Assembly (NCBI GenBank): GCA_037951105.1
Contig: JBAMJV010002053.1
Coordinates: 1 to 64,000, forward strand
Reading direction: 5' to 3'
From: Echinarachnius parma
Lineage: Eukaryota; Echinodermata; Echinoidea; Clypeasteroida; Echinarachniidae
Length of the DNA: 64,000 bases
The notes beneath the pieces are model-generated. The model ran no database searches, was not told the DNA's origin, and saw only the letters and a list, made by a program, of their open reading frames with translations. The position numbers and the translations under genes were made by a program. Below are positions 1,123 to 61,400 of this stretch, one piece after another; position 1 is the first letter of the stretch; the number at the start of each line of letters is the position of its first letter.

Positions 1123-1190
1123 CCTCCGTAGCAGTTGAGGCAGACGCTATAACCGCTGAGAATAAGTGAATGCAGATGTCAGTAATCATG
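1123..1190 (-). pseudogene. Degenerate copy of gene A exon 14, 3' edge
   Basis: The minus strand ends in '...GCGTCTGCCTCAACTG', 'CTACGGAG|GTTTGTTATA', parallel to exon 14 'GCGTGCCTCAAAGGTTACGG' 'AG|GTACGTTATA'. Exon edge and donor-side intron are copied together; the counterpart in unit B is at 41050-41117. Confidence 0.65.
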
Positions 1191-1541
1191 GTAATACACC
1201 TCTGTAACCAAGTTGATATAGTATTGCCTCTTGCATTTTGGGTTCTCCTTACACCAAACCAAATGATTTTGTTGTCAGTATTACATTACTGCATTTTCCT
1301 GCAACTGCAATTGCATGATAGTGCATTCTTCTCCAAGTACTAAACATGTTCACCAATACATTACTTAGATGTCTCCTACTTCTGATATCTATTATCACAT
1401 ACATGCAACAGTCTAAAGCCATGGGCGTCGATCTGTGATTGATACCTATTGTTCAGGGGAGATTATATATTCCTTCACCCCTCTCTGAACAAAAAGTATT
1501 AAGGACGGATCAACGCCCATGTCTGAACCAATATAACGTAC

Positions 1542-55400: not shown

Positions 55401-58400
55401 TTAAATAATGTAATCTTAAATATATTAGAGATTAGAGAGACATTTGACCAATCAAACCCATTTCATTATCTTGTTACTATAAGCCACACAACAACTAGTG
55501 ATTTAAGTTGAATTTTGAAAAAAGTTAATAGACTACTTTAAATATCTTTCAATTCAGTTTCATTTCTATTTCTACAGCACTAGAAATTCAGTTTGTAAAC
55601 ATAATACACTTTAAACAATACTTGAATAATAGTTCAACACAAAACACAGTAATTCATATATAACAAGATTATACGCCAATGTCACATAAACAAATAATAC
55701 AGATCCGATTTATGTGGCATAATATAACTTGCGAGCAAATCTATTGTCCATGTGATTGATATATATTCAAATTAATCATAATCATGTTCAAATAGAATGA
55801 GACCTATCAATTAAATGTAGACAGATGAAGAATGAACGTATTGGCAGAACATACATGGTCAGTTATTTTGCACTACGTTTCCGTTAGGTTGATGATTAAA
55901 CACGATTGATATAAAGAGCGAAATTGCAAGAGAACGGCTTCCTCTATATTACCCAGATTATTGCATACACACTGAACACGAAGTTGGCATTTTCCACCCG
56001 CTCGGGAGTATTATAGCAATCTCATGGAAAGCCCACGTCCAATTCGTCTCTTATTTGGGGTCGATATCTCAGCCAGATGATCAATTTCAATCAGTAATTT
56101 TCTTAAAAATAACTTGTTTTTGAAATGCCAAATAATATCATAACATTACGAAATCTCAAACTCCTAATTTGTCATTATGTTTTTCGCGACTTTTAGTACA
56201 CGTATGTTATTTGTTTATAAATGTGTTTGTCCCTTTCCTGAAAATGTTCACCTTTATTGTTCGCGGAAATAAAGCAGGTTATATGTTTTACGTAAATATT
56301 TTAGATATGGTAGACTTTAAATTATGACTGTTATTTAATTACTTTCCCAAATACCCTTTACAGGTAAATGATAGTCTGCAGTGGGAAACGCCCCACACGC
56401 AAAGAAATGAAATGTACGGTCTTATTACCAACCATTTGAAAGACTATACTTTTACTTATATGGGATTATACAAATTTGGCCAGGAAACCACCTACTAATT
56501 GATATATTTGCTAAATTATAAAAACTGATTTGCAGCAAATCTTACCGCCAACGCGGAATCTCGCATACGCTACGTGCAAAAGACCTCGTGGTCTCCACAT
56601 GGTCTCCGGTATGCGGGTTTGTTGTTATCTCCAGCCCAGCGCTAGCGGCGGGGACAGGTGCGAACAGGCGGTGGATTTATACATTTCACGGGCGGCCATC
56701 GGATTTCTTCTGATATTCTGCATTTAACGATGCTTAGGTTCGGATCTTACCACACAAGCCCTTTTTAAATACTTATTCAACAATATTGATTAATTAGTTT
56801 GGCCACTATAGATGTTTTCGGTAACTTTCACAAAACTGTTATTTGACTTTAACCATGATTACCAAGTAAGAAGCGGCATAGCAGTATTTGCCATTGAATC
56901 GGGGCACCCCACTTGTCTTATTCTCTTTCGTAGTCTCGCACAGCCAGACGTTCCCTGGATCTTTGTTCAGTCCCGTGTACATACCGTCTGTTGGTATTCG
57001 CCCTCTTGCGGCATCCACTGCAAATATTCATAATAATAATAATAATAATATAGTTACTTATATAGCGCTAAATACATAAGTTTCATAGCGCTTTACACTA
57101 TTATTACCCCGGTCATAGGATACAATGCAAACCAGCACACATTGTGTGCACCATCTCCACTCCCTGGGGAGCATTCCTTCCAAGCGATCACGGGCTTAAG
57201 AAGATCGTTCACATAACGGCTTTCACCTCCTACCGGTCCCCATTTATACACCTGGGTAGAGAGCAGCAATAGTGGATAAATTGTCTTGCTGAAGGACAAA
57301 CGCGGTGGGCAGGGTTCGAACCCGGGATCTCACGATTGGAAAGCGCGCGCTCTACCAATGTTGCCACACCACATCCAAATTTGCAACAGAATATCAGATT
57401 AATATATAATAGTTTTTTTTAAATTATCATTTAAGAGTGATGTATTTGTTTATAGCAAAACTAAATATAAATTTGAATACATTATTACTAATTATAGTCA
57501 CTTACACTGCATATCAGTGAATGTGTTAAGTTGTATAGTAATTGTGTGGGAAAACACATATTGTGTGTTTTTTAACTGAATAATAATCATTTATATGTGA
57601 ACAGTTTTGTCTTCACTTTTTGTCATCTACTAAGTGGAATAGGTATGTATACCAAAAAAATGGTTTCAAACTTATCATAGTAAGACGAGAATAAACAAGT
57701 AGATGAATACATAAATACATATAACCAAATAACTAAATAACTAAATAAATACATAAATAAATACATAAGTACATTATTACATACATTTAGAAATTCAAAA
57801 CAAAATTACATCAATGCATATACATAAATATTTACATTATACATACATTCAATAAAATAATGAAATTGAATACATATATAAATACGTGGATACATTGACA
57901 ATCTTGAAAATAAACATGCTAATGCTTTGTGTCTTCCTACATAGTAGCGTCCTAGGTCCTGGGGATGTATTCTGAAAACAATACAGTTTAGATTTATTGG
58001 TTATACGTCATATCTACGTCACTAAAATATATTTTAGCAAATCGCTATTCCTTAACTACAGTTTCATATTTTAGTGACGTAGATATCACGTATAGATTTT
58101 GAGCTTAAAATCGTTTTCAGAATACACCCCCTGGTCATTGTCGAACCGAATCAGATCTCTGATACAGGTCCGGGAGATCAATAAATATATAGATGTATAA
58201 ATCAATGCTTAAATAAACAAATAAATAAATGAATGAATACAACATTTAGTAATTAATCATTGAATACATGGATACTTGACCAAGAATGCTAATGATTTAC
58301 TTCTCCCTGCATAGTAGCGCACAAGGTTAAGGTCCTTGTAGAATCGGATTAGATCTCTGAAACAGATCCGGGAGATCAATGGGTTACACATTACATGGCC

Positions 58401-61400
58401 GAGGTTAAAATTCAATTAGGTGCTGGATCATCTGGAAGAACAGTGCAACAGAAAAAAAACACTGAAGAGGCTAACCTAAATAAAGACAAAAACACATCAT
58501 TAACGTGATAACTAAATGACGTATTGAATCATTAAAGTGGATGAATATTTTGAGAATAAAACTGATTAAGATTTACTTCTTCCTGCACATTAGCGTCTTA
58601 GGTCTAGGTTCTTGTAGAATCGGATGAGATCTCTAAAACAGATCCGGGAGATCAATGGGTTACACATCTGGAAGAACTGGAAGAACAGTGCAAAAAAAAA
58701 AAGCACTGAAGAGGCTAACCTGAATAAATAAACACAACACACATAACTAACTAAATGACGTAATTAATACAATAAGTGGATGAATATATTATAAATAAAG
58801 CCGATTAAGATTTACTTCTTCCTGCATAGTAGCGTCCTAGGTCCAGATCCTTGTAGAACCGGATCAGATCTCTGATACAGGTCCTGGAGATCAATGGGTC
58901 CGGTATGATTGGGAAGATCGGGAAGATCGGGCGGATCGGTAACTCGATGTCGGTGTCGTTGTCGGCAAGGACGTTGACGAAGTCATCACCATCGAGAGTC
59001 GGATTCTCGGCATCACCGAAATATGCCTCCAGAACCTATGCAAATGTTTAAGTCGATGTATTTGTTTTCCATATATTTACAACAAAAATAAAACATAATT
59101 CCTTATACATACTGAGGTATACACAAATAATATAGTTCATTGTAGTTTTGTATTAACGCAAGAGAGAAAGACGGCTTGAAAATAATACATTTTAATGAAC
59201 ACATTCATTAGAAAAACAACAATGTGAATAGCATACATACACAACATTTGCATATCTTATACTTCAATTTCTAAGAAAATATATAAATATACTTTGTTTG
59301 TTAAAGTTACTGGTTGGTATTCACATATAGGTTATACATTAACAATACAACTGTCCCGTGCATGGTATACATCAATCTAAACACGTATCTTTATAAACAG
59401 TAAGTGATTTTAGGGATTCAATTCAACTTGATTGATTTGAAAGTCGGTTCCGGTATATTAATGTAATTATTGTTTATTTTACATGCAACATGCCTTATTT
59501 TGTTTGTAAACGATCCCACCAATGTGTCAAATGTCAATATACGATAGCTCCTAGCTTATGTGGACATACATGAAAGAAAATGATGTGGAAGTAAGAATAG
59601 TTTTACTACCTTTAGGTGTTCCTTGGAGTCCATCAGTCGGGCGATGGCTTCTTCGTAGTTCCACCCATGACTCTCCACCTTCTGCCGGAAAGATTCCTGG
59701 CCATCAACAACTAGAAACACAGAAAAGGTGTATTTTGTTGTACATGTACGTAATATAGAGTTGATATAGGTCAAATTACGGAAATAGTTTTAAAACACCA
59801 CTTACATTTAATGGGTACAAATCACCGAAATATTCCTGGCCATCAACAACTAGAAACACAGAAAAGGTGTATTTTGTTGTATATTGAATTTATTATGCAA
59901 GATAAAGTTGATATTTACGTAAAATATGAATTTATTACGTATGAAGAGTTGATAGGTAAAATCACGGAAATAGTTTTAACGCAAAACATACATTTAATGA
60001 GTACAAATCATCGCGGCTCTCCACCTACTGTCGGAAATATTCCTGGCCATCAACGACTAGAAAGACAAAAAGGGTGTATTTCGTTGTACTGTATATTGAA
60101 TTTATCATGTAAGATAGAGTTGATATAGGTAAAATTACGGAAATAGTTTTAAAACACAACATACATTTAATGAGTACACATCATCGCGGCTCTCAACCTT
60201 GTGCCGGGAAGATTTCTGGTCATCAACAACTAGCCAGAGAAACAAAAACAGCATGACTAGGCCTAGGGGGATGTTTGTCACCTATCCCAAGTTGAACTCA
60301 TCTCTTAGTTGGACTGATGGAAAGCTATTTTGTTTAATTATTAAAAGCGTTCGTAAAACAGGCCTCCAATTTTGAGATAACAAAAATGTTAATAATAATT
60401 ATAGACTAGCATTTATTTTGCTCCATCAATCTAGACATAGATACAAATCATTAACATTTTCTTGTATTAAAGACACTCCAAGAAATAGATGTACAATTCA
60501 TTTGAAAGTTTATAATATTCTCATTTGAGCTGTTTCTGTTCTCAGAATTGACATTAAATCTGAAACGTTGTGTTTGTCGATTAAGTTAAATGTTTATGTC
60601 GTTCGTGCTAACAAATTAAATGCTACAAATAAAGTATCAAAATACATCGCTGGAGAGATAAATCAAATGCAAGAAAAAGTGTATAATTTCTGGAATTGAA
60701 TGAGCCCACTGGATGGTCTATTTTCAGGAGTGCCGACATGGCCCTAATGCAGAAAGAGTTGCGATCGATTGTAAAGTGGCAATTGATTGCAAATTATCAT
60801 GCAACTAAATTAGCTAACCTGATAGGTTCACAAATGTGTATGTTATTATGTTCTAACTTCCGATTGACTGCACCTTAACAATTAATTGCACGTCTGTCTG
60901 CAACACGGGGCCTATAGTCTTCTTTGGGGTAACAGGTAAAACAACAACTCTGTTTTATACATAATATCTCATTTTGTTACATTTTTAGAAGGGATCTAAT
61001 AATTTTGTTGGCAAGTGAAGAAAACGATGAATTGTTGGACAAGTGTGTAATTTTGTAAGTTGATATATTTTCTAGGTATTGTGTAAAAATGTCACGATGG
61101 ATGTAATATGGTCGAGAAATGAGCACCAATACAAAGTGATATTCCTTAACACATTGTACTGCCTCTGTACATAGTTATGACTTTCCAGTGCATAGTTAAC
61201 AATCTGAACATTTCAATCGTATATATCTTTTTAACGAAAGGGAATCCGAAACCTGCTTCATGCTTTCATTAATAATGGATACACTACATTTTTCATTAAG
61301 TTGATTTGGACAAACGTTACTAGATCTGTTTTAATTATAGCAATTGTTACTTACTCTGCCCCCTTGCCTGCCATAGCTGCCTGATCTCTGGTCCGAGTTG

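Follow-up and report, generated by a model that had tools for sequence, protein, structure and literature searches.

Two tandem minus-strand genes encoding NRF-6-like acyltransferases, here called A and B, are contained in the 64,000 bases of Echinarachnius parma DNA analysed in this study (bases 1-64000 of contig C2052, which comprises 197,662 bp; hereafter the window), and seven of their exons are accompanied by degenerate copies of parts of themselves. With a probability of roughly 0.8, we conclude that these copies are tandem duplications of the kind termed 'mirages' in lancelets, where tandem duplicates of intron-exon boundaries have been described (PMC3087553, PMC3902484), that such duplications are apparently genome-wide and that they are mostly neutral.

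Degenerate copies accompany seven exons of genes A and B

The exons of A and B were defined from conserved coding blocks and GT-AG sites. Gene A lacks its last two exons because the contig starts at window base 1. In gene B every intron is of the GT-AG type and the frame of 834 amino acids is intact; an NRF N-terminal domain (PF20146, E 8.5e-11) and an Acyl_transf_3 domain (PF01757, E 3.5e-25) identify the product as an NRF-6-like membrane acyltransferase.

For each exon edge, a query of 120 bp (60 bp of exon and 60 bp of flank) was compared with the flanking ±3 kb, and direct copies were scored at E<=0.01. Direct matches were obtained with 16 of the 60 edge queries of both genes, and with 13 of 60 at 1e-3; some of the 16 represent intron-only matches (exons 5 and 7). 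Mismatched neighbourhoods yielded 4/300 matches at E<=0.01 and none at 1e-3, and dinucleotide-shuffled neighbourhoods yielded none at either threshold (0/300). The initial annotation had reported degenerate adjoining copies for exons 2, 3, 8, 10, 13, 14 and the last exon. All seven were recovered, six of them with the copy at the edge or at the stop-codon end.

The intron-exon boundary itself is copied beside the real one for exons 2, 3, 8, 13 and 14, and the stop end is copied for the last exon (Table 1). The acceptor of exon 2 occurs in three copies each in A and B, that of exon 8 in one copy in each gene, and that of exon 13 in two copies in A and a weak one in B, where a longer query returned a better acceptor copy. 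Donor copies were found for exon 3 (one in A, four in B) and exon 14 (32 bp at 1e-3 in A; 2e-7 in B), and the stop end of the last exon gave eight matches in B, all as originally assigned and all at E<=0.01. The assignment of acceptor-edge copies to exons 2, 8, 10 and 13 stands for exons 2, 8 and 13 and fails for exon 10. The copies of the latter are the weakest of the seven (5e-4 in A, 7e-3 in B) and are devoid of the splice site because the match starts approximately 23 bp (A) or 14 bp (B) inside the exon. Broken frames, as claimed previously, are present in several copies: stop codons occur in the exon-2 and exon-3 copies, and the exon-8 copy contains an in-frame TAG, as read by eye from the alignment.

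Position and size of the copies point to small tandem duplications

Six further genes of the family were added from the searched assembly of 1.2 Gb in 14,790 contigs, P1-P4 on C2052, P5 on C3572 and P6 on C8083. Their exon edges, some of which are approximate, were located by homology and set to the closest AG or GT. The resulting set of eight genes comprises 105 exons, 30 in A and B and 75 in the other six. Using longer queries, we obtained 50 copies at E<=1e-3 in 23 of the 105 exons. Acceptor-type copies were invariably located upstream of their own exon (19/19) and donor-type copies, the last exon aside, invariably downstream (10/10). Stop-end copies of the last exon lie downstream in 12 of 14 cases, and the two upstream ones belong to P6, which has two near-complete last exons. 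The remaining copies are five exon-interior and two whole-exon ones, the latter derived from the last exon in P3 and P5. Upstream acceptors and downstream donors are the order necessarily produced when a tandem duplication has one of its breakpoints within the exon, which agrees well with the earlier proposal of small tandem duplications with breakpoints inside exons, left as minisatellite-like arrays. The accompanying claim that only edges are copied is correct for A and B and does not extend to the wider set, given the whole-exon copies in P3 and P5 and those of an enolase exon (see below).

Copy offsets ranged from 122 to 577 bp in 21 of the 23 exons having copies. With the offset of the nearest copy taken as unit size, random breakpoints lead to an expectation of 17.1 edge-only cases in these 23 exons, and 20 were observed. 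Random breakpoints and the unit sizes thus predict mostly edge-only copies, and an edge-specific mechanism, which we had considered, was dismissed as unnecessary given the size of the units relative to that of the exons. Copy identity is 61-89%, and copy bases at an identity of at least 80% amount to 9.8% of the exon bases of the eight genes.

We propose that short stretches of this genome would often be duplicated head to tail. Where a breakpoint falls in an exon, the duplicate would carry one exon edge together with the adjoining intron; the copy joined to the remainder of the exon would stay functional while the cut-off copy would be left in the intron, upstream in the case of an acceptor and downstream in the case of a donor or stop end. 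The cut-off copy would then decay almost neutrally, sometimes after further tandem amplification. Having a single splice site, it would probably escape recognition as an exon. Exon-anchored copies would be the easiest to notice because their functional partner hardly changes. We infer that the copies are neutral, that a single splice site is tolerated and that the duplications arose by slippage or repair.

Alternatively, the copies might be decayed whole-exon duplicates, that is, former alternative exons of which only one edge part is still recognisable. Such an origin is suggested by the copy of exon 8 in P5, which spans 124 of 168 bp, by the copies of exon 4 in P4 and P5, which extend over up to 136-139 of 167 bp, and by the whole copies that exist for the last exon of P3 and P5 and, twice and with AG and GT present, for enolase exon q104-149. 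However, the arrays of exons 2, 3 and 16 lose similarity at an exon-internal point but stay similar over a long stretch of the adjoining intron, and unit size alone predicts mostly edge-only copies. We therefore regard this alternative as quite improbable.

The relationship of copies and exons was also examined in trees. In the tree of exon 8, the copy from P5 is placed beside its own exon (87/92) and the P1 copy took no resolved position. In that of exon 16, the P5 copies join the exon of P5 (93/86) and the P6 copies that of P6 (100/98), those of P1 and P3 were again not placed, and seven of eight B copies cluster together (93/88), apart from the B exon. The grouping of the P5 and P6 copies with their own exons indicates that some of the duplication events were independent. 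By eye, the stop-codon end of the last exon (window 37278-37381) contains the short direct repeats AGGTCA and TCATAG, a possible reason for its repetition in B, P1 and P3; further copies are present in P2, P5 and P6.

Copies in two unrelated genes and their distribution in the genome

In the enolase gene (C4472; second contig C304), copies were found for four of ten exons, the first two exons of the gene being judged at the protein level only. Exon q104-149 has two extra copies with AG and GT present, exon q149-174 a copy about 0.3 kb downstream, exon q223-278 an acceptor-edge copy 181 bp upstream, and exon q350-412 an acceptor-side copy ~700 bp upstream as well as a donor-edge copy ~690 bp downstream. 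In PGK1 (C4364), copies were found for three of eight exons. Here, an array runs into the acceptor of exon q140-173 and includes only 2-7 exon bases, exon q172-253 has a donor-end copy, and exon q370-405 has an acceptor-edge copy. Background tiles at E<=1e-3 gave 65 direct and 27 inverted matches of 247 for the enolase stretch and 46 direct and 41 inverted matches of 220 for PGK1. Occurrence of the same pattern in enolase and PGK1 indicates that it is not specific to NRF-6-like genes. The gene pair A and B, singled out in the initial annotation, is thus not special in this respect: unrelated exons showed the same in both genes tested.

Two details of the enolase gene on C4472 were noted in addition. 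The two copies of exon q350-412 break off at almost identical exon positions, as if an exon-spanning segment had been inserted into its own middle. The extra copy of exon q104-149 at C4472:106486-106635 has no stop and has kept AG and GT, and could therefore be an alternative exon.

Searches for dispersal covered the arrays of exons 2 and 16. Throughout the 1.2 Gb, the exon-2 array matched only A and B and one 48-bp stretch, and the exon-16 array had no genome match besides itself; very common words were skipped, so that these results are strong, not absolute. That the copies represent a dispersed repeat resembling exon edges by chance is extremely improbable in view of these matches, even though interspersed repeats abound on both strands of the locus. 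A dispersed-repeat or transposon origin was rejected for the two arrays searched, as there were no many-copy matches elsewhere.

Exon edges are not generally preferred

Copy rates were determined in tiles of the eight genes, comprising 1811 intron tiles (outside recognised dispersed repeats), 331 edge tiles and 265 exon-interior tiles. At E<=1e-3, the rates of direct matches were 0.176 in introns, 0.148 at edges and 0.147 in exon interiors, and 95 of 319 direct intron matches point at exons. The corresponding inverted rates were 0.108, 0.042 and 0 (0/265). In a shift test, in which the exon set was slid through the eight genes and exons with a match were counted, 31 of 105 exons were observed at E<=1e-3 compared to a mean of 30.2 (standard deviation 3.9, P 0.48). 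By subtraction, the six genes other than A and B account for 17 of 75 exons vs about 16 expected (1e-3) and for 13 vs about 11 (1e-5). The raw test rules out a preference for exon edges as a general rule, and the idea that they are favoured had to be abandoned for the eight genes; an excess in A and B remains.

This excess is one of several results that weigh against genome-wide, mostly neutral duplication. A and B alone were enriched in the shift test (14/30 vs 8.8, P 0.014; at E<=1e-5, 13 vs 7.1, P<0.001). When dispersed intron tiles were set to no-hit, an excess was obtained in the eight genes (31 vs 24.0, P 0.036; at E<=1e-5, 26 vs 17.6, P 0.009) as well as in A and B (14 vs 7.8, P 0.003; at 1e-5, 13 vs 6.2, P<0.001). 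Inverted matches are common in introns and occur in none of the 265 exon interiors, indicating that part of the direct intron rate stems from interspersed repeats and not from tandem duplication. The sample of unrelated genes consists of only two, enolase and PGK1. Unlike the unstable published mirages, the last-exon array of P3, the one array compared, contains as many repeats as its allele on C2691 (8 mismatches and indels of 6, 4 and 1 bp over 1597 aligned bases). Finally, of the 21 acceptor copies with an alignment extending across the edge, 19 have retained AG.

The enrichment in A and B probably reflects discovery bias together with slower decay of exon-anchored pairs. Likewise, the excess in the eight genes after removal of dispersed tiles would be due to slower exon-anchored decay and to the fact that the pattern was discovered in A and B. 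The equal repeat number in two alleles indicates that the P3 last-exon array is not hypervariable, and a hypervariable minisatellite was accordingly rejected for this array.

Retention of splice signals in the copies

The retention of AG exceeds that of other AGs in the same alignments (126/221), with P values of 0.0009, 0.0033 and 0.0057 under per-copy nulls, and edge-only acceptor copies kept AG without exception (16/16). These values would be expected if the copies were kept for function, the copied acceptors serving as decoy or alternative 3' splice sites for splicing control or unproductive transcripts. However, when the copies were counted as 12 related groups, AG was retained in 10 vs 6.8-7.7 expected (P 0.056-0.13); with relatedness by descent taken into account, both within arrays and between A and B, significance is lost. 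Moreover, GT is kept in 8 of 12 donor copies, as expected (6.3-8.2; other GTs 63/118), AG is missing from the two whole-exon copies of the last exon, several copies have broken frames, and reverse transcription PCR on lancelet mirages suggested regular splicing (PMC3087553). We therefore consider a functional role of this kind quite unlikely, and AG retention in copied acceptors, as judged from the alignments, is a lead and not a result.

A bolder combination, which we think unlikely, would be that mirage duplication acts genome-wide in an animal outside the lancelets and affects between about one fifth and two fifths of exons, those of glycolytic genes included, and that copied 3' splice sites are under selection while the exon parts decay. 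If so, the copies would be a lasting source of decoy acceptors and of introns yet to arise.

Relation to published duplications

According to the initial annotation, no named mechanism predicts such edge copies. The mirages of lancelets, however, have the same anatomy (PMC3902484, PMC3087553). They have been described in Adh3 and the globin genes BflGb6 and BflGb9 (PMC3087553) and in PGBD5 and TnC (PMC3902484). Common to both systems are tandem boundary duplicates beside the real edge, the involvement of acceptor as well as donor edges, the occurrence in several unrelated genes and the preservation of AG or GT signals in many copies (here 19/21 and 8/12, respectively); the unit size of about 150-160 bp in the globin mirages is a further likeness (PMC3087553). 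In contrast, the copies described here look older (61-89% identical vs 81-100% in BflGb6), the repeat number is equal in the P3 alleles (one array) vs 6 and 3 units in the BflGb6 haplotypes, repetition additionally involves the stop-codon end of the last exon, and the host is not a lancelet. Lancelets carry many GFP genes; a lancelet-type GFP query returned no match from the present genome, an empty result that is weak evidence when taken by itself. A partial literature search found no published mirages outside lancelets. The nematode 'Mirage' is a transposon class unrelated to exon-edge mirages (PMC7960049). The density and spread of such copies in an animal outside the lancelets, and the possible retention of copied acceptors, may be new.

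Intron gain by tandem genomic duplication (Rogers; Gao and Lynch 2009; Hellsten 2011; PMC3443670) likewise involves intragenic tandem duplications carrying splice signals but differs from the present case, in which copies of pre-existing edges were placed in introns or flank and no new intron is evident. Tandem exon duplication and mutually exclusive exons, including the inter-boundary and intronic matches of Exonize, share with our copies the presence of exon-like unannotated copies in adjacent introns (PMC9013439, PMC12343006), whereas the copies described here are mostly partial and often frame-broken. The share of duplicates is given in PMC9013439 as about 2% in human, 0.08% in fly and 0.06% in worm; comparison with the 9.8% obtained here is rough, since another pipeline was used and our value covers eight related genes only.

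As the same signature is found in eight related and two unrelated genes, the duplication rate is measurable. Since the functional exon hardly changes, each copy serves as a separate clock and preserves a record of its breakpoints, so that the suggested connection between intron gain and duplicated boundaries can be put to the test. On the practical side, exon predictors may call such edge copies exons.

Features of the locus

The coordinates of both genes, the relevant exons and their copies are listed in Table 1.

Table 1. Genes A and B, exons and exon copies in the window
Feature	Position	Strand	Evidence
Gene A, NRF-6-like acyltransferase, exons 1-14	1542..23199	-	GT-AG exons, one continuous frame
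Gene B, NRF-6-like acyltransferase, 16 exons, 834 aa	37338..61475	-	Exon model and Pfam domains
Exon 2 of A	21071..21171	-	Exon model
Three degenerate acceptor-edge copies, exon 2 of A	21304..21760	-	21304-21400 E 4e-15, 21465-21543 E 1e-4, 21707-21760 E 8e-5; AG kept 3/3
Exon 2 of B	59610..59710	-	Exon model
Three degenerate acceptor-edge copies, exon 2 of B	59825..60244	-	E 3e-14, 7e-16, 7e-8
Exon 3 of A	19571..19799	-	Exon model
Donor-edge copy, exon 3 of A	18753..18875	-	E 3e-7
Second, weaker donor-edge copy, exon 3 of A	19231-19384	-	E 2e-6
Exon 3 of B	58816..59035	-	Exon model
Donor-edge copies, exon 3 of B	57874..58688	-	58517-58636 E 6e-22; 58249-58360 E 1e-15; 57874-57961 E 7e-8; 58130-58162 E 7e-4
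Acceptor-edge copy, exon 8 of A (exon 12101-12271)	12432..12530	-	E 1e-10; AG kept; in-frame TAG
Acceptor-edge copy, exon 8 of B (exon 52019-52189)	52352..52453	-	E 5e-12; 99% identical to the A copy
Copy of bases 23-78, exon 10 of A (exon 6202-6481), without splice site	6797..6851	-	E 2e-6
Weak copy near acceptor, exon 10 of B (exon 49877-50156), without splice site	50263..50299	-	E 7e-3 only
Two acceptor-edge copies, exon 13 of A (exon 2766-2913)	3067..3447	-	E 1e-13, 1e-12; AG kept in both
Copies, exon 13 of B (exon 43053-43200)	43301..43576	-	E 5e-11 (acceptor), 2e-8 (exon interior)
Short donor-edge copy, exon 14 of A (exon 1542-1728)	1111..1142	-	84% over 32 bp, E 1e-3
Donor-edge copy, exon 14 of B (exon 41462-41648), 1.65 kb downstream	39734..39853	-	E 2e-7, 3e-7; GT changed to GC
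Last exon (16) of B, ends with stop codon	37338..37460	-	Exon model
Tandem array of the exon 16 stop-codon end, period ~80 bp and multiples	36633..37255	-	

Blocks of 96-97% identity between A and B (window 1-1797 vs 39927-41716 and 11616-14386 vs 51537-54292), in surroundings of roughly 70-95%, suggest gene conversion between the two tandem genes. Contig C2691 is allelic to C2052 down to about window 62.3 kb and is 95-99% identical in the compared stretches. Its segment C2691:33000-36999 gave only short repeat-like matches and none to the exons of gene B, and gene B may therefore be structurally variable between haplotypes.

An interspersed repeat of ~550 bp occurs on both strands at window 16818-17363, 27980-28520, 28554-29076, 29444-30476 and 34262-34528, the copies being about 68-95% identical. 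An inverted pair of 769 bp and 98% identity is located at window 8260-9028 and 30824-31591, and a nearby reading frame at 9041-9388 appears, by eye, to be reverse-transcriptase-like.

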